The notes under the pieces are model-generated. The model had not been told where the DNA came from and did not search any database. It saw only the letters and a program-made list of their open reading frames with translations. Below, piece by piece: positions 1 through 14,466 of a stretch of DNA of 64,000 bases. Positions within the stretch are counted from its first letter, which is position 1; the number at the start of each line of letters is the position of its first letter. Source of the stretch: Halorubrum sp. PV6 (lineage in GTDB: Archaea; Halobacteriota; Halobacteria; Halobacteriales; Haloferacaceae); NCBI RefSeq assembly GCF_003990725.2, contig NZ_CP030064.1, forward strand, positions 1,054,001 through 1,118,000, given 5' to 3'. Position numbers and translations under genes: made by a program.

Positions 1-899
1 GCCAGTGCGGCCGCAACTTTCGGAACCGTTTCGATTGGAGAAGGTGATCCAGGTGGCGTCCACGCGGGACCCGCGTCAGCTGCCTGTTTGTACTGACTCC
101 ATCGCTCTTTGGCGGCGCTGGTGACTGTCAGGGTTGTCTCCTGCACTGCCGTTAGATACGCATCAAGCCTTGCTGTCGGAACTGGGCGACAGTCTGCTGG
201 GGCTGGGTTAGCGGCTGTCTGATCGGTCGGCTGCGCTTCGTCGGCAGCTGCGGCGTCGAGGTCGACGACGAAATCGAGACACGCCGCAAGGTGTGGATCG
301 AACGGCGCCTGATCACTAGCTGCGCGTGTGTGGGTAACGGCCACAGCGCCGGTTGACGACTGTGTGGTATACTGTGTCTCACTGGTAACCGCCACCTCAC
401 CGGTGGTGAGTGCCCGTCTGATCGTCATGTGCAGGTCGGCGGTGGCGTGTGCAATCGCGTCATAGATGGTGAGTCGCACCTCGGTATCGACCTGTGGCCC
501 CTGCTGGAGTGGCTCGCCAACGGCATGAGCTCTCGTTGCGGCTTCACACCCGAGGGTGGCAATCTGTCCACACGTCTCACGCACGTGTCGACACAGCGAC
601 GCCGTTGATGTCGGGACAGTCGCTGTGTAGCCAACCTGCAGTTCCTCTCGTGACATGTCGATGCTTGACCGGCCAGCACTGGCAAGTTGGAGCGCAACGG
701 CTTCGCCGGCAGTAGAAGCCATTCCTGGTGGCGTTAGTGTCGCTGCTAGCCGACGGAAGATCTGTGGATCGGCTGCGAGTTCCGCGACCGCATCAGATGG
801 GTCCATATGTACTGGCTCGGCCGTGTTGGTGTTATCTGCAGCGACTACAATGAGGCGTGTTGACACGGGTTCCGTCAATGGTGATGCTCCCGGGAGCAT
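1..899 (-). CDS. MCM-like protein lacking AAA+ motor (partial, runs off left edge)
   Basis: The reading frame stays open to the window edge, so the C-terminus is missing. Around residues 45 to 65 it has a stretch, LAADPQIFRRLAATLTPP, that resembles the entry into the MCM ATPase domain (DP..  RL  ..P). The following region aligns by eye with the protein at 5647-6537 (for example ALTTGEVA against GMTTGEVP), so the two are paralogues. No Walker A or Walker B motif is seen. The ATG at 899 begins a plausible run (MLPGASPLTEPVSTRL); an internal ATG at 806 is the alternative. It is divergent from the small gene at 988. I infer an MCM-derived or MCM-mimicking protein of a mobile element; its function is unknown. 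Confidence 0.6.
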   Translation of the reverse strand, partial: MLPGASPLTEPVSTRLIVVAADNTNTAEPVHMDPSDAVAELAADPQIFRRLAATLTPPGMASTAGEAVALQLASAGRSSIDMSREELQVGYTATVPTSTASLCRHVRETCGQIATLGCEAATRAHAVGEPLQQGPQVDTEVRLTIYDAIAHATADLHMTIRRALTTGEVAVTSETQYTTQSSTGAVAVTHTRAASDQAPFDPHLAACLDFVVDLDAAAADEAQPTDQTAANPAPADCRPVPTARLDAYLTAVQETTLTVTSAAKERWSQYKQAADAGPAWTPPGSPSPIETVPKVAAAL

Positions 900-987
900 G
901 ACGTATGGCACCGATCGTGTCGAATTCCATCGGTCAGCTGTTTATGTGCCTGAATGGGTGCGGTCGTGTTCACTCGACCGTGTTGTC

Positions 988-1236
988 ATGACGAAGAAGA
1001 CTTCCGTTGACGAGATCGCATTGCCCGACGAACTGTCACACCCTCCGGGAGTGCCCACACTGGACGACGCCACCAGATTCACGCCCGAACACGCGCCCCA
1101 CCGGCGTGTCGAGTACGAGCGGCGCGTCGACGCCGACGGCTGGGTTGATCCCGCCGCCGAGCGGACTGAACAGCCACCCGCTACGGACGCTGCATCGGCG
1201 CTGTCAGCATGGTCTGGTGGTGACTCCGATGCGTAA
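988..1236 (+). CDS. Small conserved hypothetical protein, first gene of a duplicated cassette
   Basis: An 82-residue acidic protein with no recognised domain. It contains FTPEHAPHRRVEYERRVDAD, which resembles YTPERQPRRQVRYEPRTHAD in the protein at 4751-5005, so the two are divergent paralogues. The upstream DNA is also conserved between the copies (gaatgggtgcggtc about 40 bases before each start). Its stop codon lies inside the start region of the next gene (8-base overlap), as in the second copy. It probably acts together with the downstream winged-helix protein, but nothing shows how. Confidence 0.6.
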   Translation: MTKKTSVDEIALPDELSHPPGVPTLDDATRFTPEHAPHRRVEYERRVDADGWVDPAAERTEQPPATDAASALSAWSGGDSDA

Positions 1237-1567
1237 GGCCGTCCCCGAGAGACGGCGGGTGTGTGCGCTGGTGCGTCACCCGCGTCGTCGCGCCCTCCTG
1301 TTGGTGGTTGCGATCGCACCCGACCATGGAGTTCCCTTGCAGACTGCTGTAGAACTGATCCGGACTCTCGAAATTGGTGTGACACCACAGGGAATCGAAC
1401 AGCAATCCGTGCAAATACTCGAGCACACACTCGAACAGACGCATCTGCCGGCGCTTGCAGCCATGGGGCTCGTTACCGTCACCGACACAGGCCACATTCA
1501 GGCTGGGTCTCGGTTTGCGATGGGTCTCCGGTTCCTTGTGACGACCCGGACGGTGTCCAGCAATTGA
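1229..1567 (+). CDS. Winged-helix protein, DUF7344-like (cassette copy 1)
   Basis: A 112-residue protein starting at an ATG that overlaps the previous stop by 8 bases (atgcgtaa). The N-terminal segment LVRHPRRRALLLVVAIAP matches the opening helix of haloarchaeal DUF7344-type winged helices, and the end of the domain (LAAMGLVTVTDTGHIQAG) looks like the wing. It is a paralogue of 4998-5327, which has the clearer LFDVLSHARRRSIILAVA. A DNA-binding regulatory role is inferred from the fold. The C-terminal 15 residues differ from the paralogue. Confidence 0.65.
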   Translation: MRKAVPERRRVCALVRHPRRRALLLVVAIAPDHGVPLQTAVELIRTLEIGVTPQGIEQQSVQILEHTLEQTHLPALAAMGLVTVTDTGHIQAGSRFAMGLRFLVTTRTVSSN

Positions 1568-1760
1568 TTCCGAGTCTCCGCCTGGTTTGGGTGGAGATGG
1601 GAGTACCGGCTGGGTGGCACAGCCCGGAGTCTCCCTGCACGACTTGTCCGGCGGACTCCAACCGCAGGCACAAGTGGTAGACTGCAAACCGTAATATCCC
1701 AACTGCGGTCGGGATTTTTCCACCTTCAGGCGGCGGCGGATGTCACCAGAAATCAAGGTG
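1568..1760. other. Intergenic stretch without a recognised gene
   Basis: This gap lies between the winged-helix gene and the IS1341-type element. Short open frames exist on both strands but none resembles a known protein. The last part (after about 1680) leads into the likely left end of the transposon. No convincing promoter or RNA was seen. Confidence 0.4.
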
Positions 1761-1866
1761 GATGCCCCGTCCTCACGGAGCGAACGAAGTGATGCGAGTA
1801 GGGCGAGGAGGAAACCGACATGGCTACAACCTCACCTTCAAATACTAGTAGTCTCATAAATACAAC

Positions 1867-3156
1867 ATGAGCGTGAAGGCGAACCGCACTGTGCGTATCC
1901 CACTCTCTGTCCCCGATCACTGGGTGGACGACCTTCACGCCACACATAACCTATATCAATACTGTCAAAACCGAACTGTCGACTGGTGCTGGCCTGACAC
2001 CCCCACACACCCAGACGACCTCAAGACCAGCAAAGGCGACGCCGAAGACGCCCTCTACGACGATCTCCGCGACAAAACAGACAACGAACTCCACGCGAAC
2101 CTCGTCCAAAAGGCCATCAAAGACGCAGTGAGTGCAGTCGGTTCATGCAAGACCTCATGGGAAAACGGCGACCGCATCAGCAAACCCGAGTTCCAAGACC
2201 GTGCTGACGAGTCGTACACGATGACGTATGACAAGCGAGCGGGGACATACCACCGATACAAAGCCTCGTTCGCCGTACTCGATGGAGATCCCGTGCACTG
2301 TCGCTACGAACTCCCTGCAACCCTCAACGCCACGCCGTACAACCAGTATGTGCGTGACTCTCGATGGGGGTTCAGCACGAGCAAGCTCGTCTTCGACGGC
2401 GAGCAGTTCTGGCTCCATGCCGTGATGAACCGCTCTTACACAGACGCACCAGAGTACCCACCGACAGCCGATGGTTCAAACACGCAAGAGGACTTCACAA
2501 GAGTTCTCGGCGTGGACCTCAATGTCAACGGGCACTCACCAGTCACCAGCGCCGGTGGCTTCCACGGCAACGCAGACTACCTCAACCACCGTCGGAGCAC
2601 CTACGAGGAGCTGCGTGGCGAACTCCAAGAAACGGGGACACGATCTGCACACCTTCGCTTACAGTCTCGGCAAGGCGTCGAGTGGGCATGGTTCGACCAG
2701 TACGCTCACCACATGGCAAATTGCATCGTTGCAGACGCCGTTGCTGTCGGAGCAACCAACGTCGTGTTTGAGGACTTGACTCGGATTCGACAGCGCATCT
2801 CGAACGAGCCGAAATTCCAGCAGTGGTTGTTCTGACGTGTCCAAGAGTACGTCGCATACAAGCTCGAGGAGTATGGAATCAGCTTCGAGCAAGTGGCCGC
2901 ACGGTATACGAGTCGGTCCTGTAGTCGAACGGATTGTGACTGCGTGGATGAAGACAATCGGTCTGGCAAGCAGTTCAACTGCGTATCGTGTGGGTATGCA
3001 TTGAATGCGGACTTGAACGCGGCAAAGAATATCGGATTGAAATTCCTCGAGACACTCCCGGCGAGCCGCACGTGTTTGTCTGGGAAGGCCACCAGTCAAC
3101 TGGCCTTGGTGTCGGGGACGCTCACGCCCACCGGGAGTTTTTCCCGTATGGACTAG
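1867..3156 (+). pseudogene. tnpB: TnpB RNA-guided nuclease with in-frame stop
   Basis: Reads as a TnpB of about 429 residues interrupted once, at the TGA 2833-2835 after FQQWLF; the same frame then continues RVQEYVAYKLEEYGI. In intact relatives an Arg is expected here, so CGA to TGA is the simplest change. Before the stop are the RuvC-I Asp (LGVDLNVNG) and RuvC-II Glu (NVVFEDLTRIR). After it come the zinc ribbon (CSRTDC, CVSCG) and the RuvC-III Asp (NADLNAAKNIG). Without readthrough the nuclease centre is incomplete. TnpB normally cleaves DNA guided by an omegaRNA made from the element right end. The rest of the frame is undamaged, so the mutation looks recent. Confidence 0.85.
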
Positions 3157-3159
3157 GCG

Positions 3160-3235
3160 TCCACCGACAAGCCCCACCCTCAACGAGCGAGTGGCAGTCT
3201 ACCTGCCCGAGCGAAGTAGGGTGGGGTAGTTGACT
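3160..3235 (+). ncRNA. Putative omegaRNA 3' end / transposon right-end hairpin
   Basis: Directly after tnpB, a 9-bp perfect stem (3172-3180 with 3218-3226) encloses a 37-base loop containing GAGCGA repeats. In IS200/IS605 elements this region overlaps the guide RNA scaffold. The hairpin is seen; transcription as an omegaRNA is inferred from the family. Confidence 0.5.
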
Positions 3236-3340
3236 GATGACGACAACCGCTCAAGGCACCCGTACCTTCCGTACGACCGTATCCAGTTCCACGTTGCGCT
3301 CATTGCGAACGACCCCAGCGACGAGTCCACAACACTGTGA
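3236..3340 (+). pseudogene. Possible C-terminal remnant of an interrupted gene
   Basis: Immediately after the transposon right end, an open frame reads DDDNRSRHPYLPYDRIQFHV and then ALIANDPSDESTTL before a TGA. It has no start, and its composition looks coding. It may be the tail of a gene split by the TnpB element, but the matching 5' part was not recognised on the left side. Confidence 0.3.
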
Positions 3341-3552
3341 GGCTGGTCATCGACATCAACAAATCTAGCCGGTGAACGCCGTGAGCCGACGCGTGTATGC
3401 GGTCAACGGCTTTGTTGAAATCCCAGTGTTCAGATATATTCCCGCCTGAAACAGCCGGTCGCCAAAGACTACGTATTGACTACTGTGAGTTTGTACTGAC
3501 ATGGATGGCGCGTCACAACGTCTATTACAGCGGAGAGAGAATATGAGGTAAG

Positions 3553-3861
3553 ATGGCCACAAACAACGACAAAATCCAGTTCCGGGGAGAAAGTGAGAAG
3601 GAGGCGACTCAGATTGTCGATCAGATGCGTCTTGGTGGGATCAACATCAGTGAGCTTGCTCGACAGGGTCTTCAAGAGAAACTCCGAGAAGTCCTCTCGG
3701 ACGAGGAGAAGATCACCCTCCACCAGCGATACAAGCAGGGAGAGCTTTCTGAAGACGTTGCAGAGATTCTTCTTGGTGATGCCTTGGGAGAAATTGAGCG
3801 GGAGCGGGAGGCCTTTGAGGAGGCTGCGGAGCTTGACACGACTGGCGTGTTCCAGAAGTGA
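3553..3861 (+). CDS. Antitoxin-like protein paired with PIN toxin
   Basis: A 102-residue protein. Residues 15 to 50 (IVDQMRLGGINISELARQGL) look like a ribbon-helix-helix or UPF0175-like DNA-binding segment, followed by a charged region containing a conserved-looking stretch (ELSEDVAEILLGDALGEIE). Its stop overlaps the GTG start of the PIN-like gene by 4 bases (GTGA), so the two are translationally coupled. It is inferred to neutralise the downstream nuclease and repress the operon. The exact antitoxin family is not certain. Confidence 0.65.
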   Translation: MATNNDKIQFRGESEKEATQIVDQMRLGGINISELARQGLQEKLREVLSDEEKITLHQRYKQGELSEDVAEILLGDALGEIEREREAFEEAAELDTTGVFQK

Positions 3862-4469
3862 AGATGGTGGATGATGTACGCCATCCAGTTATCGTTGATA
3901 CAGACGCACTAATTGCTGTCGCGAACACGGGTCTCTGGTCTCGAATTACGGATAATATACAGCTGACGACGACTAACGTGTGCTATCACGAACTCAAGCG
4001 CCACGTTCGGGAGATGTCTGAGTACGCGCCTGACGGGACGAGAGAGCGGTGGGTCCACGACGGGAGTAAGCGGGCACTTGAGCCGTTCGACGACGAGGAG
4101 AAGTCGTTTACGACGGTTCCGTGTGTTCCTCGACCGCATGGAGAGGATGCTGGGGAGAAGTCCGTGAAGATGGAAAGTGAGCAGCATACAGAGGTGTATC
4201 GGTTCGCTATTTTGATGGATACGCACGGGCGTCGGGCTATTAATCGAGTATTCGGTGACACCGACGAGACGACTGGAAAAGCAGTTGCTCCCACGTTTTT
4301 GCTGTATCTGCTACTAGACGACGGAGAGTGTACTGTAGCGGAGTTTTGTCAGGCCTGTGGCGAGATGCTTCGAGGGGAAGGCTGGACAGGATATCAAGCG
4401 ATTCAGGCAGCGTGGGAAGCGATCCCGGTCGATTGCTCGCAGTATCTCCCGGACACTCTACTTTCATGA
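3858..4469 (+). CDS. PIN-domain-like toxin (VapC-type ribonuclease)
   Basis: A 203-residue protein. The N-terminal VIVDTDALIAVANTG has the first PIN-domain acidic residue followed by a hydrophobic helix, and TTTNVCYHELKRH carries the second conserved acidic position. PIN toxins usually cleave tRNA or rRNA. At about 200 residues it is longer than a typical VapC (about 130), with an extra C-terminal helical part. The start is GTG at 3858, overlapping the antitoxin stop; ATG at 3864 is an alternative. Function is inferred from fold and operon structure. Confidence 0.65.
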   Translation: MKMVDDVRHPVIVDTDALIAVANTGLWSRITDNIQLTTTNVCYHELKRHVREMSEYAPDGTRERWVHDGSKRALEPFDDEEKSFTTVPCVPRPHGEDAGEKSVKMESEQHTEVYRFAILMDTHGRRAINRVFGDTDETTGKAVAPTFLLYLLLDDGECTVAEFCQACGEMLRGEGWTGYQAIQAAWEAIPVDCSQYLPDTLLS

Positions 4470-4750
4470 ACACTTCGGAACAACGAGATTGTATTACCAA
4501 CTATTGTTAATCTATCCTGAGCAATTCGTGAGTCCCCTGTATTGACCGCGATCGGGTCACTGTCTGGTATTGTTGATGCTCTCGCCAGTGCTGCTGATCT
4601 CGATTCACTCTGTCGGCCGCGGTGAGACCGCGGCACGCGACGAAACCGTGGCCTGCGAGCGTTCGGTTCGTGGATGTGTTGGTTGCGGCTGTGACTGCAG
4701 TTTGTGGATCCGGAATGGGTGCGGTCATGTTCGCTTGACCGTGTCTACAG
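4470..4750. other. Intergenic region upstream of cassette copy 2
   Basis: The last 50 bases resemble the sequence upstream of 988 (gaatgggtgcggtc then a gaccgtg motif), so this is probably the shared promoter region of the duplicated cassette. A minus-strand open frame at 4507-4728 has no recognisable similarity and is not called. Confidence 0.4.
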
Positions 4751-5005
4751 ATGACTGACCACGCAGAACCAAATTCGACCGACAGCGTCGTCTCGACTCC
4801 TGATCAACCGTGTGTACAGGTGCTTGCCTCCGGGTTCGCGATTCAGTACACACCCGAGCGTCAACCCCGGCGTCAGGTCCGGTATGAACCACGCACGCAC
4901 GCCGATGGCTGGTGGCGTATCGTCGACGAGTGGACAGGGTGTGCGTGGCGCGTGACTGACCGAGAACCGGTTGCTGATATCCAGCTCACTATCCACCATG
5001 ACTGA
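4751..5005 (+). CDS. Small conserved hypothetical protein (cassette copy 2)
   Basis: An 84-residue protein. The core YTPERQPRRQVRYEPRTHAD is followed by WWRIVDEWTGCAWRV and a REPV tail. This looks like a compact beta-rich domain seen in small haloarchaeal proteins, but I cannot name the family. It is a paralogue of 988-1236. The stop overlaps the next start by 8 bases (atgactga), repeating the copy 1 architecture, so the pair is probably one transcription and translation unit. Confidence 0.65.
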   Translation: MTDHAEPNSTDSVVSTPDQPCVQVLASGFAIQYTPERQPRRQVRYEPRTHADGWWRIVDEWTGCAWRVTDREPVADIQLTIHHD

Positions 5006-5327
5006 CACTGACACTTCGTTGGCAACGCTGTTCGATGTGCTCTCGCATGCGCGTCGTCGCAGCATCATCCTCGCCGTTGCCTGTGCGCCCGCTGGCGTGC
5101 AGTTGCGGACGGTTGCTGAGTTCCAGTACGCGATCGAACACGACGTGACCCCCACGGCTGCGGCAACACGCTCTGTGACGATTCTGCAGACGAATCTCAA
5201 ACGGAGTCATCTTGAGCCGTTGGAGGCGGCTGGCTGTATCACTCGGTCTGGTGACCGGCTTCACGCCGGGCCGACCCATGGGTGGGCTCTCGCGCTCATT
5301 GCTGTTGGGGCGCTGGTAGGCGCGTAG
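4998..5327 (+). CDS. DUF7344-like winged-helix protein (cassette copy 2)
   Basis: A 109-residue protein opening with LATLFDVLSHARRRSIILAV, the usual start of haloarchaeal DUF7344-type winged helices (a block of Arg after the first helix). The second helix region (RTVAEFQYAIEHDVTPTAAA) and the wing (LEAAGCITRSGDRLHAG) follow. The C-terminus is hydrophobic (ALALIAVGALVGA), possibly a short membrane-associated helix. It is coupled to 4751-5005 and converges on the MCM-like gene at 5647. A DNA-binding regulator is inferred. Confidence 0.7.
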   Translation: MTDTDTSLATLFDVLSHARRRSIILAVACAPAGVQLRTVAEFQYAIEHDVTPTAAATRSVTILQTNLKRSHLEPLEAAGCITRSGDRLHAGPTHGWALALIAVGALVGA

Positions 5328-5646
5328 GGGAACTCGGCGGCGGCGGCGTTCGATGGTGTGGCTGTGATTTTTCCCACCACGTAGTCGTGGACATTCTCCT
5401 CGATCTCGTGTACAGTGGGTCATCGAAACAGGAACCCCACGAGTGCAGTGAGGCGTCCGGGAGACACACGCTACGGTCACTGTGGCGATCATCGTGGCCC
5501 GTAGTTCGTAACCAGAAGTGTAGTCGATCAACTGGCTCGCTACGTCCTTGGGAGTTCATCGACGAGTGAGGTCGGATACCGCTCGCTGTCTGTGACCCTC
5601 TCCTCGCGGCAAACGGCGAGGAGGCAATCACTAGTACTCACGACGA
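5328..5646. other. Intergenic region between convergent genes
   Basis: About 320 bases without a supported gene. Open frames here are short, on both strands, and lack family resemblance. The inverted sequence around 5595-5615 (cctctcctcgcggc then ggcgaggagg) could act as a terminator hairpin for either side. Confidence 0.35.
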
Positions 5647-6537
5647 CTAATCGACATGCAACATATTGGCATACAGGTCCGCTGCCGTCTCAACGTGGGC
5701 TGGCGTGACCATGTCGGAGAGTTCGAGTCGCGCACTTGCGATTGCGAGTCGTTCGATGGTGTCTGTTCCGCCGGTCTGTGTCGGTGACTCGGTACTGTCG
5801 GCGTCGACATCGTGGGCGATCTCCGTCGCGGTGTTCATCTTCTCAAGCTGCTCGCGGGCCGCCGTAGAGAGTGGTGTTGGTCGCTGCCGAGCGTACTCGA
5901 GATACACGCCGGCAAATGCGGGCTCAACCGGATCGATCGTGGGGAGCCGCGTGTCGGTGAGCCAGCGATCAGCTGTGCGATCTGCAGTGACCACCCCGTC
6001 AACTGCCAGCGCCAGTTCGGGGATAATATCGTCGGACGCACCACGGCGCCGGGTAGGAGACGTCCGCCACGTCACGGTGATGGCGCCCGGTGCTGGATGG
6101 GTGCCGTCAGTCGTCCACTCTGGAACCTCGCCCGTTGTCATCCCTTGTGCAATTGCCTCTTGGAGATCTGGCCCAGCAAACCTGATCGACGAATACGCCG
6201 TCAAGGCAGTGTCTGGATCCGTAATCGGGCTCGTACCGCCCGTGTGCAGAGCGGCTGTGTGGTCGGCCGCCTCACAGTAGATGAGCCCGACGCTACCAGT
6301 GGCTGTACGGAGTGTGGTGAACGCGGAACTCGCTGGGATTCGTCTGTCGAGTCTGAGCCCGAGATGCAGCGGGCGCACCGCTTGATCGACGGTCGCCACC
6401 GGCGCGCTCACGAACTGTAAGAGGAGTGCTTCGCCAACTCGTGGCGGGATCTTAGGCGGGGTGAGTGTCAGTGCAAGCCGCTGTCGGGTGTACGGATCGG
6501 CTGTCAATTCGGTTGCGGTCATCTCGCCAGTGCGCAT
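5647..6537 (-). CDS. MCM-like protein without Walker motifs
   Basis: A 296-residue protein. The N-terminal LTADPYTRQRLALTLTPP resembles the MCM segment just before the AAA+ core. The C-terminus resembles the MCM lid and arginine-finger region: YLEYARQRPTPLSTAAREQL, then IERLAIASARLELSD, matching the MCM pattern RL.EASARVRLSD. The part between lacks a P-loop (GDPGTGKS) and Walker B, and the protein is less than half the length of an MCM helicase. I infer a replication-linked accessory or decoy protein of a plasmid or integrated element. It is a paralogue of the partial gene at 1-899. Confidence 0.65.
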   Translation of the reverse strand: MRTGEMTATELTADPYTRQRLALTLTPPKIPPRVGEALLLQFVSAPVATVDQAVRPLHLGLRLDRRIPASSAFTTLRTATGSVGLIYCEAADHTAALHTGGTSPITDPDTALTAYSSIRFAGPDLQEAIAQGMTTGEVPEWTTDGTHPAPGAITVTWRTSPTRRRGASDDIIPELALAVDGVVTADRTADRWLTDTRLPTIDPVEPAFAGVYLEYARQRPTPLSTAAREQLEKMNTATEIAHDVDADSTESPTQTGGTDTIERLAIASARLELSDMVTPAHVETAADLYANMLHVD

Positions 6538-6860
6538 ACACGGTCAACGTGTGGCCGAGAGTTGTATGCAGCGTGTACAATGAGTCGGGTTCACACCCCA
6601 CAAAAAGTATCTATCGCCCACTCGGGTGTTGCCTCTCCAGAAATCTAATTCGAAACAGTCGCTATCTCCGTGGAGGAGGGCGGTTTCCAGCATGAACCAC
6701 TCACAGATCGTTTCGCCTCACTCTCCATCCGTATCTGAACACCGTCCTGTCAGCATCACCGCTGAGAACATTATTCCGGTTACTTCTGTGGAACTAATAG
6801 TGGCAAAAAATGCAATCAATCTTATTTGACAGCACATGTTGCTGTCAAAGAGATTATGAT
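6538..6860. other. Intergenic region
   Basis: No convincing coding frame. AT content rises towards 6780-6860 (taatagtggcaaaaaatgc), which probably holds the promoter of the coiled-coil gene at 6861. Confidence 0.35.
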
Positions 6861-7115
6861 ATGGCCAGCTTTATTTCCGAGCATGATGAGTTGGGTGTGA
6901 TGAGCGAACACGAAGAGATGGAGGAAGTCTATTCACGCCTGTCAGATGGTGAGAACCGCGCACGGGAGCTTGAACGCACACAGGTTGACCTCCAGCATCG
7001 GGTCGAGATGCTCGAAAAAGTCATTGTACATCTCATTGATAAGTCAGATATTGACCCCGATGAGATTGGAGATACTGAGACGTTAGGGCAAAGTCCGGTT
7101 ACATCAATCCGATAA
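6861..7115 (+). CDS. Small acidic coiled-coil protein
   Basis: An 84-residue protein. From about residue 15 to 65 it is rich in Glu, Leu and Arg with heptad-like spacing (MEEVYSRLSDGENRARELER, then LQHRVEMLEKVIVHLI), which predicts a coiled coil. The tail is acidic. Family not recognised; such proteins occur on haloarchaeal plasmids. The ATG at 6861 was chosen over an upstream ATG at 6810 because the upstream segment is Cys-rich and non-halophilic in character. Confidence 0.5.
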   Translation: MASFISEHDELGVMSEHEEMEEVYSRLSDGENRARELERTQVDLQHRVEMLEKVIVHLIDKSDIDPDEIGDTETLGQSPVTSIR

Positions 7116-7265
7116 AAGCCACACCAGTGAACTATCGCACCCTACTCGTCTGCTAACGTAGATTCCTTGAGGGGGGATTTCTATTTCAACGACGCGACGT
7201 GTACTGACCATGTCACCAGAATCGGCACTCAGTGAAGTGGTCGTATCTCTTGTTCAACGGCACGG

Positions 7266-7671
7266 TCACTGGCGGTTCCCACGCTGTGGTTCGCGGTGAG
7301 ATATTGTCGACAATCCACCGTGGCCGGCCACTTGAATGGCGCTCACCCAATCAAGGTCGCGAACATCACTCAGACGATGGTCATAGCTCCTTGTGGAGAT
7401 CCCGGCTCGCTCGATCTGGAGCGGCCGAGCGACTGATCCGCTTTGAACAGTGTGGCGTACAGCTTCGTTGCTGTCGGGGTCAGGTCGGGGCGGAAGCGTG
7501 TGGCCGGGAGTGTCGCCGCGGCGCGTTCAATGTCGGCAGGCGTCGGAGAATGAGGGTCGTTCAGCGCTCGGAGGAGGTCCACCACGACATCGTACGGACA
7601 TGCTTGGTGGGTAGTGCCGATAGACCGAACGAGTGGAGACACAGCTGGACGAGTTGCTGTCGCTCACCCGA
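7266..7671 (-). pseudogene. Frameshifted C-terminal remnant of the large plasmid winged-helix protein
   Basis: Three frames together reproduce the C-terminal part of the 902-residue protein at 20118-22826. These are ERQQLVQLCLHSFG, then QACPYDVVVDLLRALNDPHS through TRFRPDLTPTATKLYATL, then ERAGISTRSYDHRLSDVRDL. At least two frameshifts separate these blocks and no N-terminal part is present. This is a decayed second copy, evidence that the element type was present more than once. Confidence 0.75.
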
Positions 7672-7677
7672 GGCGGC

Positions 7678-8160
7678 TTACGGTGGGTTTTGACCAGCAT
7701 TGAGCGGCGCATACGAATTTCTGTGGTAGGCGACCCGCCAGAGTTTACAGACGGCGCGAGTGACTAGTTCCTCGGGAGACTGTCTGATACAGGATTCTTC
7801 GACGGCGTCCAGATCTGAGCTCGCAGTCGGCGGCGAATGATAGTGTTCGAGCCTACTGACGTGAATGTAGTCTCCCGCATGTGGATGCTTTCCCCACCAG
7901 AAATTCACGCCGTCCGTGTCCGTGTAGTGAAATTTGTAGTCAGCTCGTGTCGTCCACTGGATGTCAATCCGAGCCTCGTCTGCCACACACAACCCGTCGT
8001 CGAGCACAACTTCGAGGACAGATGGATGAAGATAGTCGTCAAGTTCGGCTGTCGCAAGCGGCTCCATTTCCTCGACAACGTCGCGAATCGTCAGAAGTGC
8101 CGGACGGTCCGTCGCTCCGCGAAGCGTATGGTGTTCGTTTTGATCTGCGGAGTCCTCCAT
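7678..8160 (-). CDS. TumE-like protein paired with DUF7342-like regulator
   Basis: A 160-residue protein. The middle part (YKFHYTDTDGVNFWWGKHPH, then ISRLEHYHSPP-like VSRLEHYHSPPTASSD and a C-terminal VTRAVCKLWR) resembles haloarchaeal TumE-family proteins, small proteins usually found with a partner regulator. It follows the winged-helix gene by 3 bases, so they form one operon. TumE relatives are proposed toxins; a toxin role here is inference. The first 50 residues are less typical. Confidence 0.55.
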   Translation of the reverse strand: MEDSADQNEHHTLRGATDRPALLTIRDVVEEMEPLATAELDDYLHPSVLEVVLDDGLCVADEARIDIQWTTRADYKFHYTDTDGVNFWWGKHPHAGDYIHVSRLEHYHSPPTASSDLDAVEESCIRQSPEELVTRAVCKLWRVAYHRNSYAPLNAGQNPP

Positions 8161-8163
8161 CGC

Positions 8164-8751
8164 TCAGGCCGGGACGCTATCATTTGTTGAACGATCGCCG
8201 TCGACAAACTGCTCGGCGTTGCCAATCGAGAGGGCCGCGTTCGCGAACGCAAGGTTCCGACGGAGCGTCTTCCACTCACGAATCCGCTCGGGGTCGATCT
8301 CTTCTTGTGGAGATCCGGACTCGGCGAGAGCCTGATTCGTTTGGTTGATGGCCAACTCTTCAGGGGAATCGACACCGAATTCAGCCTGATACTCGGTGAG
8401 CTGCTCGCGCATTTCTTGGATACGTGTGGCCAGTTCGTCGGTCGAGACGTGTGCAAGGATGTCGGCAGCCTGTTCGACGACGAGCGATTCGGGTGAGCGC
8501 CGATAGAGCGTGCTACCGTGTTCGCCGGGTGTCGTCTCGACGAATCCCTCGTCTGCAAGTGTGTTCAGATGCTTTCGAGCGGTCTTCGGAGCGGTCCGTG
8601 CATCGTCAGCGACCGCCTCAGCTGAGAGAGGACGATATGTATGTCCAATGACGTGTCGAATACGTTCGTAGGGCGTCGTTTCCGTTTCCCATTTTTCCCC
8701 AACCGCCTCGTTGATATCTGTAAACTCCGCTGGCGGGCGTTGGTTGTTCAT
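8164..8751 (-). CDS. DUF7342-like winged-helix regulator
   Basis: A 195-residue protein. After an acidic start, residues 25 to 75 form a winged helix: the recognition region is VADDARTAPKTARKHLNTLA and the wing is EGFVETTPGEHGSTLYRRS. The second half is helical (REQLTEYQAEFGVDSPEEL) and probably dimerises. This layout matches haloarchaeal DUF7342-type regulators. It is the first gene of an operon with the TumE-like gene and probably controls it as an antitoxin or autorepressor. A degenerate paralogue lies at 18429-18998. Confidence 0.7.
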   Translation of the reverse strand: MNNQRPPAEFTDINEAVGEKWETETTPYERIRHVIGHTYRPLSAEAVADDARTAPKTARKHLNTLADEGFVETTPGEHGSTLYRRSPESLVVEQAADILAHVSTDELATRIQEMREQLTEYQAEFGVDSPEELAINQTNQALAESGSPQEEIDPERIREWKTLRRNLAFANAALSIGNAEQFVDGDRSTNDSVPA

Positions 8752-8813
8752 GTTCAGACAGATACGTTGAAGGAATATAGTACTTTGGACCGATCACAAA
8801 TTACTCTAACACT

Positions 8814-9023
8814 GCTCTGTTGAATCCGCAGAAGGCGGTGGGATCGGGTCACTCTGTACTCGGTTCTGGAGCGCTGTCGAGTGAATTCAGAGATGGAATC
8901 TTGACAGAGAGAGTGAGGACCAAGGTCACTGGGCGGAGCGATCCAACTCCTCGATGACGAAGCGTGAGATAATCACCTCTTCAGAGATCGTGATCCCCGT
9001 GCAGTCATCGGATTCAACAGAGC
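8814..9023. repeat. MITE-like element with 14-bp terminal inverted repeats
   Basis: The ends are gctctgttgaatcc (8814-8827) and its exact complement ggattcaacagagc (9010-9023). The length, 210 bases, nearly equals that of a second element with the same ends at 46616-47772 once the nested IS5 there is removed. The interiors differ and hold no gene. The longer end ctctgttgaatccgcagaag is identical to one end of the decayed IS5-like element at 47831-48301, the likely source of the transposase. Confidence 0.6.
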
Positions 9024-9227
9024 AGTTCTGACTGGTGCGTGGTACTCCGCTTGTGGGATCGTTGTTATCGGATCGTCTGCTTTGACGAGCATCGCCGGAT
9101 CGATTTGAACTCCATTTTCTCGGCCAGATCGGTCGACACGGATCACGCCAAGTGATTCAAGAACATCAGCGGTCGAGGGCTGATCACAATCCCAGAGGTC
9201 CTCCGCCGACGGGTTGACAGGCTGCAT
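8973..9227 (-). pseudogene. Gene fragment between two IS/MITE ends
   Basis: The frame reads DVLESLGVIRVDRSGRENGV and continues plausibly to about 9024, but its ATG lies within an IS5 end remnant and its last residues are inside the MITE-like repeat. It therefore looks like an internal piece of a lost gene. Family not recognised. Confidence 0.3.
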
Positions 9228-9254
9228 TGAATCGCTGTAAGGCGGAGAGATTTA
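9220..9254. repeat. IS5-family end remnant
   Basis: Thirty-five bases starting ggctgcattgaatcgctgta match the inward-reading right end of the IS5 element at 46820-47759 (ggctgtgttgaatcgctgta and the following ggcggagagatt) with three differences. The rest of the element is gone; regulator sequence follows directly, so a deletion happened here. Confidence 0.65.
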
Positions 9255-9464
9255 CGAGAGGTCGGCGTCGTCGCGGAACTGGTCGTTGCACCCGGCAATC
9301 GCGTGCGCGGGTACCCGTACAAGTTCTACCAGCTCACCTCGCAGGCGCGAGCGCTGTTCGACCGAAACGACCCGTTTCCGGCAGACGCGTGGCAGCGGCA
9401 GGACGCTCGTGTGGAGAAGACCGGTGAGGTCGCCGAACTCGAATCGATGCCGCGGCCCGAGTGA
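9250..9464 (+). pseudogene. C-terminal remnant of a haloarchaeal HTH regulator
   Basis: An open frame without a start reads VVAELVVAPGNRVRGYPYKF, then LTSQARALFDRNDPFP and a tail ending LESMPRPE. This is the typical end of haloarchaeal MarR/HTH-type regulators. The 5' two thirds are missing and the sequence abuts an IS5 end at 9220-9254, so an IS-mediated deletion removed it. Confidence 0.65.
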
Positions 9465-9517
9465 CTCCTGCTGGAATCGCCTCTCTTAGGAAACTCGGGT
9501 CGCAGAGTACCGCCCGC

Positions 9518-10900
9518 TCACCGATCGGAGTCGAACAGCGTCGCAAGCTCCGGGATGCCATACAGCCACGCGTCGGAACGATCGTCGACCACGGCCCGTA
9601 ACTCGTCCGTGAAGCCGGCCCGCGAAAAGAGCGCGTACCGTACCTCTCGGTCGGTTCCTTGCCACCGGACCTCCGATTCGAGCGTCGTGAGCTCGTCGAA
9701 CACCCGGCGACCCACTGGTTCCGTGGTCCACTTACACTCCCCGAGGAGCAAGGTCCCAGTCCCCCGATCAACCCCAGCGATGTCGACCTCCTCGCCGCCG
9801 TACCACCAGCGGCCGATCCGCGAGCAGGAGACGGGGAACGCCGGCGTCTGGACCGCCTGCTGGCACACAGTTTCGAAGTTCTGGCTCGTGTGTGTCGGTA
9901 GCGTCTCGGCGATCGCCGATCGGACCGGTGCCGTCCGTCCCTGTTCGAGCGTTCCTCGATTGGGTGCCACGTACCGAAACCAGAACCGAAGGAAATCGTC
10001 CGTCAGCCGATACAGTCCCCGGCCGCCAGGGTCCGTCACCGGATGCTCCTGGTTGAGGATTGCCAACTGCGTGAGGTTTTGGAGATACCGGGAGAGACTG
10101 CTTGCATCACGGCCGATCTCGTTGGCGATCTCGGTAACGCGTGTCGCGCCACCGGCGATGGCTTCGAGGATCGCCATATACGTCGCGGGCTCACGGAGTT
10201 CCTGCCGCAGGAGAAACTCCGGCTCCTCGTACAGGAACTCACCTTTCGAGAGGATGGATTGCTCGATGTTCTCGAGGAGGCTCAGTCCTGGATCGAACTG
10301 TTCGAGATACGCGGGAACGCCTCCAAGCACACTATACAGCTGGATCTGCGTCTCCAGATCGTCGTCCGGGAAGAACGCGCGAACGTCCGCGAACGAGAGT
10401 GGAGCGAGCTCCCACTGTCCGGTTCGGCGCCCGTATAGTGGGCTCTCGTAGCTCAACACGCCCTCCTCCATCATCGAAATCGACGAGCCCAACAACACGA
10501 GCGAGACGTCCGTTCCTGCGAGTACGTCGTCGACAACGGTCTGAAACACTGACGGGATCGTGTCGTCCTCGTCGACGAGATACGAGAACTCGTCTAACGC
10601 TACCACGCACGGCCCGTCGACGCGCGCCGTGAGATACTGAAACGCCTCGACGAACCCGTCGACATCCGGAGTGATATCGTCGAACGCAGCAGCGCACTGT
10701 GCCGCGAATCGCCGAGCGTTGTGCGTTGCGCCCCGCTCGTCACAGAGATAGTAGACTGACGTGTCTTCGAGTGCGTCAAGCGCCGTCGTCACCAGCGTCG
10801 TCTTCCCTACCCGCCGTCGCCCGTATACGACGAGGAGCTGTCGCTCGGCTCGTGAGAGATGCGACGTGAGCCATTCGAGTTCAGTTTCTCTGTTTATCAT
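9518..10900 (-). CDS. Archaeal ATPase with C-terminal DUF234 nuclease-like domain
   Basis: A 460-residue protein. The N-terminal ATPase_2-type P-loop domain has Walker A (GRRRVGKTTL, residues 26-35) and Walker B (CVVALDEFSYLV, about 97-108). A winged helix follows (EIANEIGRDASSLSRYLQNL, about 260-280). The C-terminal DUF234 part has a PD-(D/E)XK-like signature, EVDIAG then LLLGECKWT (about 370-395). The length is normal for this archaeal family. Role unknown; the family is often linked to mobile or stress genes. It is monocistronic, with the next gene divergent. The nuclease assignment is based on motif reading. Confidence 0.8.
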   Translation of the reverse strand: MINRETELEWLTSHLSRAERQLLVVYGRRRVGKTTLVTTALDALEDTSVYYLCDERGATHNARRFAAQCAAAFDDITPDVDGFVEAFQYLTARVDGPCVVALDEFSYLVDEDDTIPSVFQTVVDDVLAGTDVSLVLLGSSISMMEEGVLSYESPLYGRRTGQWELAPLSFADVRAFFPDDDLETQIQLYSVLGGVPAYLEQFDPGLSLLENIEQSILSKGEFLYEEPEFLLRQELREPATYMAILEAIAGGATRVTEIANEIGRDASSLSRYLQNLTQLAILNQEHPVTDPGGRGLYRLTDDFLRFWFRYVAPNRGTLEQGRTAPVRSAIAETLPTHTSQNFETVCQQAVQTPAFPVSCSRIGRWWYGGEEVDIAGVDRGTGTLLLGECKWTTEPVGRRVFDELTTLESEVRWQGTDREVRYALFSRAGFTDELRAVVDDRSDAWLYGIPELATLFDSDR

Positions 10901-11207
10901 TATGCGTGCGATAATATTATCGTGTTCATAATAGTTGTTCGGGTCCGTTGTGGCGATCGTTCTCCGGGTTTCAGTACAAGAAGGCCGCTACAGTCTTAGC
11001 GCCGGCGTTGTTCGAACTCCTGACGTTCACCACGTTGCTGTTGGCCGCCTCCGACGTTAGCAGCGTCCGCTTCGTATCCACCATCTTGGCTACATACGTG
11101 ATGTCACGTGTCTGCTGGTCGTCCCCGTCGATCACCGGCGGACCGTCGAGACAGCCGTATCGAGTTGGGAGAGTGTTTTGTCTGTCGGCGTTCAAAGATA
11201 CCCTAGC
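10901..11207. other. Intergenic region with a weak minus-strand ORF
   Basis: Upstream of the ATPase gene. AT-rich sequence at 10903-10930 (ataatattatcgtgttcata) is a likely promoter for 9518-10900. A minus-strand frame at 10971-11195 (74 residues, containing SEAANSNVVNVRSSNNAGAK) has protein-like composition but no recognised family and is not called as a gene. Confidence 0.4.
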
Positions 11208-11732
11208 ATGGGCCTGTACGACGACGTGCTGGTCGCAGATGGCGTCAGGCTACCGAAGTTCCCAGCCGAGGCTAGTCCGTCCGATATCGGGTGGCAGACG
11301 AAAGACATTGGTCGGCCAGCCATGCGAGCGTACAAGATTACCGCAGACGGACGGCTTCTGCGACGCGAGCGAGAGTTCCGTGAGAAAACGTCTGAGGAAA
11401 AGCAGGCGGTGGCCGCCGATCATGGCTTCGGATCGTGGGACGAGTACGCCTCGTTTTGTGATGACGCCGACCCAGGTGACCGCATCCAACGGGGAATCGG
11501 TCTTGGAGCGCCGAACTCCCGGACCGTCGACGAGGAGTTCTGGCTCGATCACAATATGCACGGCAGTTTCGAGTTCCATGGACGGAGCGACGGCATCGAA
11601 GACGGATTTCACTGGTCGTACGAAGCACGGTTCACACGCGGGGAACTCATCGCTATCGTCTTTCTCGGCGAACGAGGCGGCGGTTCTCCCGATGAATACA
11701 GGCCCGAGGCGCCCGTCTGCGTCGAGTTTTAA
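11208..11732 (+). CDS. Conserved hypothetical protein
   Basis: A 174-residue acidic protein with no named domain. It starts MGLYDDVLVADGVRLPKFP, has a central SFEFHGRSDGIEDGFHWSYEA-like beta-rich stretch and ends with CVEF. The ATG at 11208 was chosen because the sequence before it is not conserved in character. The opposite-strand open frame over the same bases is a GC-rich shadow. It stands alone, with no operon partner. Confidence 0.6.
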   Translation: MGLYDDVLVADGVRLPKFPAEASPSDIGWQTKDIGRPAMRAYKITADGRLLRREREFREKTSEEKQAVAADHGFGSWDEYASFCDDADPGDRIQRGIGLGAPNSRTVDEEFWLDHNMHGSFEFHGRSDGIEDGFHWSYEARFTRGELIAIVFLGERGGGSPDEYRPEAPVCVEF

Positions 11733-11925
11733 CATCCACGACAGCCTGATCGTCGCCAGTCATCGCGCACAAGAGACTACTGCGATCCTCACAGCTGACG
11801 GTGGTATCGGTGACGCCGGGTACAAAACGATCTGGGACTGACTAAGCGCCTCTTCGTGAAGCGCTCGGTGACACAGACGCCATCGGTATGCATTGTTCAC
11901 CGTCGCGGTGACGCGCGAGGAACCA

Positions 11926-14466
11926 TCACTCGGAGCCGATCGCGTCACGAATCGTCTGCGCGTCAACCTGGCCATACGTCACCAACGTCGAACACCCAGG
12001 GGCATCGAGATCATACGTTGTAAGCGCTGTTGTGTCGCTCCGGACGCCGTGGGCGTCAAGGGTAATCCGTGGCTCCCCAGTCGCAGGATGCGCAAGGTGA
12101 TCGACAACGGTGTGTCCAAGTCTGCGGTTGGTGACGACCCACAAGCTCACCGCAGGGTCACACGCCGCCATCGCATCGGCATCGGTGAGCACGCCTGTCG
12201 ACAGATCATGTGTTTCGCGTTCAACTTCGACACAGATATGCGGCTGGCCGTCGCCGTCAAGCCCGACGACATCGATCCGCGCTTCTGACTCAGGAGGGAC
12301 CCAGTACCGTTCGACCTGTTCGACCGGACTTGCCGGCTCATCACGGACTGTTTCGAGCGCCTGCACCGCCAGCTCGACGCCTTTGATGTGTAGGACTGAT
12401 TCTTCGGGATCGCCGCGTTTGGGTTCGGGTGGGTCGGCGCCATTTCGGAGCCGCTGCAGTAGCGTCCGCGCTTTCGGTGTCAGGCGGTAATATTCGCCTT
12501 GGAGTTCGGACTGCGGTGTGATGTAGCCTGCCTCAGCGAGCTCGTCTTTTGGCTCCGGGCCGGTGAGTCCGACAGTTGCGCGAAGTGGGTACATTGAGTC
12601 GGTGCGCACGTCCCAGGCACGCGAGTCGATCGCCCGCCGTCGAGCGCGCTCCATGAGCCGGAGGAACATGACTTCGGTAATCGACAACGGGCAGGCGCGA
12701 ACACGCTCAACAGTCACGTCTTCGAGCCAAATATCGGTAATTGGAAGTGATGTCGCATCATCCTTAGTTGAATCCTGGCAGTGACGGATTGCATCCACCA
12801 ACCGCTCGAACCGCGGCGAAAACTGTGAACCGCAGTCTGCACAGCGAAGACTATCTTTATTCGTCGCGTACTCAACCCCCTCTGGGAGTGACTGTGAACC
12901 TAACCATAGTGTATGCCGGAGACCACGCTTAATGTCTTCTGCCGGCGTCTGTGGCTCTTCGCGAGTGTGATAGCCGGTTGGTGTCACTCCAAAGTCGTCG
13001 TGAGTGTGATCCCGAAGCTGAGACCATGCGTGTGAAAAGTCGGCTTCAACGGAAGGTGTGAACGGAGCCTGCCCGTTTGGATGCCCCGGTGGAAGCGGCG
13101 GGTCATTGATCACTGCCGTCGGACTCCGTTGGGTCGGAAGTGACCGATCCGTGGCCGGTGAGACAATCCACCGATCATCGGGACATTCACCAAGCAACGC
13201 CTGTGTCTCGGCAGGCGATCGGTCACGAACAGCAAGTTTCTCTGCAAGCCCCGGTGCGTCCATCACTTGGCCACTGAGGATGGACCCAACGTTGGTAAGT
13301 AGTTCACGGTATGAGCGGTCACCCATGTCGCTTGCTCCAGCACGCAGTTGCTGTGGAAACTGAAGAAGTGGGATGACTGAGCACCCGAACCCGCGTCCCA
13401 TTGCGAGGAGCTCTGATAACACACCCTGGACACGGAGCTGGGGAACCTCATCAATCCAGAGTGTGACTAACGCGGGCTCGTCTCGGGGGCCAAGTGCTGC
13501 CTGTCGGCTACGGAGCGCACGCCAGAGCGAAAACAACAGTGTGTTCGCAATCATGCGTTGTGCGCGCGGCGTAATCTCACTGAGATCGATGATGATGACG
13601 ACATCTTCATCCAACCATCGATGCAACCGAAAGCCATCCGTACTGGTTTCCGGTATTGAATCGAACATTGCCCGCAGGTACGGATCTCGGAACAGCTTCT
13701 CCACGCGGGTCTGCGCCCCTTCTGCGATTGCTCGAAAGAGGCGATCGGGTCCACTTGTGAGACTCTTTGTGAGTTGTTTGAGCCACTCTGGGCTCGCTTC
13801 CGGAACGGTTCGTTCAGTTTTGAGCGTGATAACTGCGTCATACAACGTCGAGAGCCCGAACGCATCAGTCCCATACTCGGGGTCAAATAACGCCATCACG
13901 AGATTTCGGATCACGTCCGGGGCCCGGACGGCGTCATCATCACCCTCAAAGACGATCTCAAGGGTCGTTAACAGATCATCAATCACGGCTGTCACCGCAT
14001 CAATCCGACTGATGCCGACGTCGAGTTGTAGCCGAATATCAAACAGTGGAGCCTGTGGTAGGCCAATCTCGCTATCGAAATATAAGACATCCTCAAATGC
14101 GTCCTCGGCGTCACGCGACCCGTAGACGACTTGGTCATGATACAATGCGCGGCCGATCATGTCTGGCCAGCCGTCCCCTTTTGGATCAAGAACAATGGTT
14201 GCACCGTCCGTCGATGTGTGTCCAGTCCTGATACCTTGTGTGGCTGTCGAGCTCTTTCCGGCACCGGTTTGTCCGGTGATTAGGCAGTGGCGATCAAGAA
14301 CCTCTTCAGGAATGATCACCGGTCGCGGTGGGCCATCAGTGGCCGTCGCTTCCTCGCCAACGAGAAGGCCCGGCAGTGCGTGTGGATCGTAAATTGACAT
14401 GGTGTGAGTCGCGGAGGTCTTACTGGATTTTAGCCGCTGGGTATCGCTGAGAGTGTGCTTAACCAA
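11926..14466 (-). CDS. VirD4/HerA-like ATPase with zinc, winged-helix and nuclease-like C-terminal parts
   Basis: A protein of 846 residues, or 824 if it starts at the ATG 14400 (MSIYDPHALPGLL). Walker A is GQTGAGKSS (about 65-73) with IVLDPKGDGWPD after it; Walker B is VTLWIDEV (about 340). This is the TraD/VirD4-HerA class of DNA-pumping ATPase. After the motor come a CADCG..HC zinc site (about 542-563), a winged-helix-like ELAEAGYITPQSELQGEYYR (about 640-660), and near 730 RIDVVGLDGDG then ICVEVERETHD, resembling a PD-(D/E)XK fold. The gene follows a membrane protein gene. I infer a DNA-transfer coupling ATPase of an integrative element, or a nuclease-linked DNA motor. Confidence 0.75.
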   Translation of the reverse strand: MVKHTLSDTQRLKSSKTSATHTMSIYDPHALPGLLVGEEATATDGPPRPVIIPEEVLDRHCLITGQTGAGKSSTATQGIRTGHTSTDGATIVLDPKGDGWPDMIGRALYHDQVVYGSRDAEDAFEDVLYFDSEIGLPQAPLFDIRLQLDVGISRIDAVTAVIDDLLTTLEIVFEGDDDAVRAPDVIRNLVMALFDPEYGTDAFGLSTLYDAVITLKTERTVPEASPEWLKQLTKSLTSGPDRLFRAIAEGAQTRVEKLFRDPYLRAMFDSIPETSTDGFRLHRWLDEDVVIIIDLSEITPRAQRMIANTLLFSLWRALRSRQAALGPRDEPALVTLWIDEVPQLRVQGVLSELLAMGRGFGCSVIPLLQFPQQLRAGASDMGDRSYRELLTNVGSILSGQVMDAPGLAEKLAVRDRSPAETQALLGECPDDRWIVSPATDRSLPTQRSPTAVINDPPLPPGHPNGQAPFTPSVEADFSHAWSQLRDHTHDDFGVTPTGYHTREEPQTPAEDIKRGLRHTLWLGSQSLPEGVEYATNKDSLRCADCGSQFSPRFERLVDAIRHCQDSTKDDATSLPITDIWLEDVTVERVRACPLSITEVMFLRLMERARRRAIDSRAWDVRTDSMYPLRATVGLTGPEPKDELAEAGYITPQSELQGEYYRLTPKARTLLQRLRNGADPPEPKRGDPEESVLHIKGVELAVQALETVRDEPASPVEQVERYWVPPESEARIDVVGLDGDGQPHICVEVERETHDLSTGVLTDADAMAACDPAVSLWVVTNRRLGHTVVDHLAHPATGEPRITLDAHGVRSDTTALTTYDLDAPGCSTLVTYGQVDAQTIRDAIGSE

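Follow-up and report, generated by a model that had tools for sequence, protein, structure and literature searches.

Archaeal MCM is usually treated as a homohexamer in which each subunit is a motor. One catalytically inactive archaeal MCM is known, MCM2 of Methanopyrus kandleri, which is without a conserved Walker A motif (PMC2933578, PMC3972481). That mobile elements carry extra MCMs is well established (PMC3307487, PMC3984812), and 13 non-core haloarchaeal MCMs were described either as N-domain-only proteins (312-315 amino acids, aa) or as proteins in which Walker B, the arginine finger and the P-loop lysine are conserved (Kristensen 2014; PMC3972481). Motorless MCMs consisting of the AAA+ part only are absent from that grouping (PMC3972481). 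Here we describe two such proteins, A and B, encoded in a 64,000-nucleotide stretch of Halorubrum sp. PV6 DNA (hereafter the window; C1:1054001-1118000 of a 3.04 Mb genome in two contigs, G000). Because the precedent of M. kandleri MCM2 exists, A and B are a variant of the known inactive MCMs. The AAA+-only motorless haloarchaeal class itself was not previously described in the literature we searched, in which no account of motorless haloarchaeal MCMs was found and from which most subscription journals were outside coverage.

Like A and B, M. kandleri MCM2 (PDB 3F8T) combines natural MCM homology with a degenerate P-loop. It differs in having N-terminal subdomains in its structure, which A and B lack, and in being chromosomal and from another archaeal group, whereas the set to which A and B belong is plasmid-borne and haloarchaeal. 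The haloarchaeal outlier MCMs (MacNeill 2009; Kristensen 2014) resemble A and B in being extra, divergent MCM genes beside one core mcm. Active MCMs of haloarchaeal plasmids and viruses, such as those of Natrinema pNATPE01 and Haloarcula tailed virus 3, are likewise borne by mobile elements and homologous over the AAA+ region, but they are full length and keep the Walker motifs and the arginine finger. A looser parallel is the eukaryotic MCM-BP, which has limited MCM homology, binds MCM subunits and helps to unload them (PMC3335088). Its likeness to A and B is one of working only, with the function taken from that paper, and among Pfam matches up to E 1 there was none to an MCM-BP family. Finally, dead enzymes are retained as structural replication parts in archaea, namely RecJ/Cdc45-like DHH proteins and an inactivated PolB (PMC3307487, PMC3984812); they provide a precedent, with folds unrelated to A and B.

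A and B are MCM paralogues cut down to the AAA+ domain and the lid. A matches the Pfam MCM_lid family with an E value of 3.5e-7, and its orthologue in another genome of that genus (G118) does so with 3.4e-9, both above the gathering cut-off. A and B are 31% identical over 291 aa, and B is tied to the MCM family through the profile and its relatives rather than through a Pfam match of its own; in tblastn it finds a motorless MCM of Haloferax profundi (E 2e-10). A profile built from A, B and their two G118 orthologues was aligned by hhalign with one made from six MCM-family proteins of haloarchaea, five catalytically intact and the sixth, from plasmid pNYT2, without the motifs. The alignment runs end to end over 287 columns (E 3.6e-12), collinear with the AAA+ domain and lid of MCM. 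The alignments used in the analysis are shallow, at 4-5 sequences for each group. The profile alignment was the comparison of hidden Markov models that the first-pass annotation had proposed, and it does find the MCM relationship. Against all PDB sequences, the same profile returned MCM-family chains only. M. kandleri MCM2 was the second best of these, matching nearly the whole profile (E 4.2e-7), a rank that is no sign of closer kinship than with other MCMs. Structure prediction, also proposed at the outset, was of use for the fold match alone: the AlphaFold models of A (mean predicted local distance difference test score, pLDDT, 44) and of a larger relative (62) are too poor for details. In Foldseek, the low-confidence model of A gave 46 matches at E <= 0.001, every one an MCM subunit, and for the low-confidence model of the larger relative MCM subunits made up 50 of the 50 among the matches listed. 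On these comparisons the resemblance to MCM is beyond chance, and we regard the identity of A and B as degenerate, motorless MCM relatives as all but certain.

We then compared A and B with the catalytic residues of SsoMCM, which are K346 and S347 (Walker A), D404 and E405 (Walker B) and N448 (sensor 1) in cis, and R473 (arginine finger), R560 (sensor 2), H418 and Q423 (sensor 3) in trans (PMC6629641). At K346/S347/D404/E405/N448/R473/R560/H418/Q423, the alignment places A/S/S/S/R/A/G/A/T in protein A and T/A/D/A/gap/C/S/R/T in protein B. The sole coincidences are therefore the serine at the S347 position in A and the aspartate at the Walker B position in B. The Walker A lysine is replaced by alanine in A and threonine in B, the Walker B DE reads SS and DA, respectively, and the arginine finger and all three sensors are changed in both. 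By alignment, no set of motor residues remains in A or B, and ATPase activity would not be expected of either. The entry motif, YLEYARQ and RLAIASARLELSD, from which the first-pass annotation had argued for an MCM-like character, are all present, and A lies exactly at 5647-6537 on the reverse strand. However, RLAIASARLELSD had been read as an arginine finger, and it is instead the AAA-lid helix, corresponding to the MCM pattern RLAEASARVRLSD; the true SRF finger has become LAV in A. The idea that the flanks were kept and the ATPase core dropped is not borne out in that form: the AAA+ region is retained and collinear, with its catalytic residues replaced, and it is the flanks that are missing; neither A nor B has the N-terminal OB/zinc domain or the C-terminal winged helix.

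A P-loop concealed by a frameshift had been raised as a possibility and is ruled out by translated scanning and by a six-frame search with PF00493. Within window positions 1-12000, the sole G-x4-GK[ST] in six frames belongs to an ATPase_2 gene at 9518-10900, and the sole PF00493 match in the genome is the intein-split host mcm. An N-terminal half encoded elsewhere in G000 was likewise ruled out, since a genome-wide search with PF17207 returned the host mcm only. The host mcm is located away from the window, at C1:2.54 Mb (L006:96-5372), and has two large inteins, one within the Walker A motif and the other just past Walker B.

Order-wide screens and plasmid searches revealed larger motorless MCMs of about 387-439 aa. 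Haloferax profundi SB29 has two on contig NZ_LOPV01000713, in tandem and 50% identical, with a gene for a 265 aa protein without a Pfam match between them and an integrase gene near (L048:10146-13563). One is found in Natronorubrum texcoconense and one each in genomes G211, G215 and G206. Two more, both annotated as hypothetical proteins, are on Natrinema pallidum plasmid pNPA70 (WP_138655765.1) and Natrinema thermotolerans A29 plasmid unnamed2 (QCC57278.1). A Haladaptatus plasmid protein of 291 aa is a doubtful member, with no Pfam match and a very long tree branch. Of the larger proteins, five were scanned: all match Pfam MCM (1e-16 to 1e-23) and MCM_lid (5e-5 or better, in one case slightly under the cut-off), and the MCM winged helix (PF21120) was recognised in three larger relatives, in two above the cut-off. 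Most have a SDATANLS-like sequence in place of the GDPGTGKS of active MCMs, and the arginine finger is lost in every larger form. In the six Haloferax, Natronorubrum, Natrinema and G211 forms, the Walker B DE has become EQ or ER and sensor 2 is retained. It follows that some proteins labelled as an MCM P-loop domain by current Pfam profiles cannot be helicases.

The larger relatives are found on plasmids and on contigs that carry an integrase or resemble viruses. In G211, the 101 kb contig also carries a weakly PCNA-like gene and, by eye, a ParA-like gene. In G215, the motorless MCM begins 89 bases past the stop of a complete, active chromosomal mcm on the same strand (L051:6320-9674); its winged helix resembles a recent copy of that of the adjoining mcm. 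The motorless MCMs form a sporadic, mostly unannotated set. Most of the others keep the MCM winged-helix region and sometimes sensors 1 and 2, and A and B are the most degenerate branch. In the tree, support is 100 for a clade of active MCMs and 100 for one of A, B and their orthologues; the connecting branches have weak support (51-71), too weak to tell a single origin of the motorless forms from several. A full-length dead MCM from plasmid pNYT2 groups among the active MCMs (support 73), and this suggests that MCM was inactivated at least twice.

Some elements carry further MCM genes. The dead protein of Haloarcula taiwanensis pNYT2 (CP019157.1; MCM genes at 76559-78655 and 7197-9146) is AUG49568.1, a 698 aa MCM with N-domain, AAA+ and lid near a Cdc6 gene; it has GPSNGTVD at Walker A, HEAG at Walker B and SQF replacing SRF. 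The second pNYT2 MCM has intact motifs. The Natrinema thermotolerans plasmid CP031299.1 (24615-25553 and 70183-71370; L141, L107) and G211:C7 (91382-92203 and 12937-13842; L068, L049) each encode an MCM made up of the N-domain only (313-317 aa) and, at a distant site of the replicon, a motorless AAA+ MCM. The two elements are related, and genes of the same types surround the N-domain gene in each. On pNPA70, the motorless MCM is present and the N-domain gene was not detected.

G118 has open-frame orthologues of A (63% identity) and B (53%) on different contigs. The ratio of non-synonymous to synonymous substitution rates (dN/dS) between the orthologues is 0.44 for A (bootstrap 0.32-0.60) and 0.45 for B (0.32-0.57); two pairs of larger relatives gave 0.24 and 0.28, and more distant pairs, being saturated, were left out. 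The A/B duplication, at 31% identity, predates the split of the copies in the two species. Judged by these ratios, A and B are maintained by purifying selection in two species within plasmid-derived DNA. Because of the G118 orthologues and a dN/dS of about 0.45, they are not plain pseudogenes. They could still be decaying relics, plasmid-borne mcm copies that have lost their function and are becoming pseudogenes. Such a course would fit the remnants in the neighbourhood (a RepH fragment, a transposon and, in G118, a HerA fragment and a broken DUF7344 gene), the moderate dN/dS and the very narrow distribution. It fits less well with frames of 296-311 codons that both species have kept open in the two genes despite the divergence of A from B, with an upper bound of 0.60 on dN/dS, and with the stronger constraint on the larger forms, which share the replacement of catalytic residues. 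We therefore consider decay unlikely.

As for distribution, screening 392 genomes of the order with a profile brought in nothing beyond the larger relatives. Neither tblastn of B against phages nor scans of IMG/VR guided by two profiles, one of them built from A, B and their orthologues, gave a match in viruses, tblastn of A against plasmids gave none, and the RepH loci examined on other plasmids had no motorless MCM among their genes.

What, then, could such proteins do? Since the residues for ATP are lost and the genes are nevertheless under selection, mobile elements appear to keep these engine-less helicase subunits for a non-motor job. The preserved order of the AAA+ region, the lid as the best conserved part and, in relatives, the winged helix and the position downstream of mcm point to a protein-protein role in replication. 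A link to replication is also seen in the surroundings: a RepH remnant lies by A in both genomes, an intact RepH gene and an Orc1/Cdc6 gene are near, and the G215 gene follows mcm. We propose that A and B may be non-catalytic partners of an active MCM, either the host's or the element's. The motorless subunit would dock through its retained AAA+/lid surface and, without unwinding DNA itself, would recruit, cap or restrain the helicase at the origin of the element, a site at which RepH or Orc1/Cdc6 may act too. The first-pass annotation had suggested that a motorless MCM could attach to host MCM hexamers or to origins and so govern how the element replicates; this putative activity is the most plausible class of function.

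Several observations weigh against this proposal. The surface expected to face the neighbour's ATP is lost (arginine finger and sensor 3, in A and B also sensor 2), so that a fit into the usual ring cannot be taken for granted. Neither A nor B has a winged helix, the element around them is decaying, close relatives occur in just two of 170 genomes of the family (protein search), and B alone gives a weak Pfam MCM_lid match (0.1). The loss of the trans residues argues against simple insertion of A or B at an active interface and leaves capping, recruiting and restraining as options. On balance, the mechanism for A and B as MCM partners is tentative, somewhat short of evenly balanced, while the explanation as a whole (MCM-derived, motorless, selected and acting as an MCM partner) appears to us as probable as its negation. 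A broader version, in which motorless MCMs are working parts of haloarchaeal mobile elements, forming mixed assemblies with active MCM, and some elements split MCM into N-domain-only and dead AAA+ proteins (CP031299, G211 C7), is possible and rather doubtful.

Alternatively, a dummy subunit made by the element might poison the MCM of the host or of a competitor, serving copy-number control or the exclusion of rival plasmids and viruses. The Walker B change from DE to EQ in most larger relatives is like that of a laboratory dead-ATPase mutant, the P-loop lysine and arginine finger are gone too, and these genes sit on plasmids or on contigs that are virus-like or bear an integrase. However, a site directly downstream of a replicative mcm, as in G215, would be odd for a poison, and A and B are without even the residues that reach the neighbour's ATP; we consider an inhibitor improbable. 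Still less credible is reuse of the fold with no remaining MCM connection, in a protein of the DUF7344 cassette that binds DNA or has a regulatory task. In its favour are the adjoining duplicated small-protein and winged-helix cassettes and the divergent orientation, in both genomes, of B and the small protein. Against it, conservation is highest in the lid, and the larger relatives retain MCM winged-helix regions, some of which very closely resemble those of active MCMs.

Selected and recurrent motorless MCMs, borne by plasmids and virus-like elements and in one case lying just past a chromosomal mcm, would imply non-catalytic MCM subunits or adaptors in archaea and their elements. Whether archaea build mixed MCM assemblies thereby becomes directly testable in a genetic model such as Haloferax volcanii.

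The features of the locus are collected in Table 1.

Table 1. Features of the motorless MCM region, with positions in the window.
Feature	Position	Strand	Basis and remarks
Motorless MCM protein A, 296 aa	5647..6537	-	Pfam MCM_lid, hhalign to MCM, residue table, G118 orthologue
Motorless MCM protein B, 311 aa in full	1..806	-	Genome ~C1:1053871-1054806; identity to A and orthologue, tblastn
Cassette small protein, copy 1, 82 aa, motif FTPExxPxRxVxYExRxDADGW	988..1236	+	Divergent from B
DUF7344 winged-helix protein, copy 1	1229..1567	+	PF24035 2.7e-8
Cassette small protein, copy 2, 84 aa	4751..5005	+	Likeness to copy 1
DUF7344 winged-helix protein, copy 2	4998..5327	+	PF24035 1.2e-8; convergent with A
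RepH C-terminal remnant, upstream of A	7317..7633	-	tblastn pieces 62-72% identical to RepH residues 712-820
HerA/TraG-type ATPase, same mobile region	11926..14466	-	PF01935 4.4e-10, PF10412 8.4e-8
Intact RepH-family plasmid replication protein, 902 aa	20118..22826	-	Identity to annotated RepH proteins

The first-pass annotation had placed a protein at 1-899. The MCM-like protein B is there, but its coding sequence extends past the window edge to L004:9871, which is 129-130 bases left of the first window position; the start codon is either the ATG at 806 (giving 311 aa) or the GTG at 911 (346 aa). The duplication of the small-protein and winged-helix cassette, also reported there, is borne out: a pair of these genes adjoins each of A and B, and the two copies are 56% identical over 25 aligned aa for the small proteins and 41% over 70 aligned aa for the DUF7344 proteins. 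In G118, the small protein is divergent from B as well, and the DUF7344 copy beside the B orthologue is the broken one. The mobile-element setting proposed for the two genes agrees with the Orc1/Cdc6 and RepH genes nearby. One Orc1/Cdc6 gene lies about 3.5 kb from B (TIGR02928 2.5e-124) and a second about 5 kb from the A orthologue in G118; the RepH remnant upstream of A has the same arrangement in both genomes, and the intact RepH, closest to proteins of Halorubrum plasmids, shares 47-63% identity with the RepH annotated on pNRC100 and on a megaplasmid of Halorubrum ezzemoulense. The region looks like a plasmid of RepH/Orc1 type that has integrated and is decaying, flanked by chromosomal genes that serve sugar-nucleotide and polysaccharide synthesis.

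Other genes in the window were noted in passing. At 1867-3156, an IS200/IS605-type TnpB-like gene with an interrupting stop was recognised by eye. Two small overlapping genes at 3553-4469 look like a VapBC-type pair, with no Pfam match at a useful level. At 7678-8751, a DUF7342 winged-helix protein is paired with a small protein weakly resembling the TumE toxin (E 0.0023, below the cut-off), a possible toxin-antitoxin pair. Apparent repeats of this pair, matched by eye, are found at L005:8415-9435 and at L056:4341-5332 and 8419-9395.

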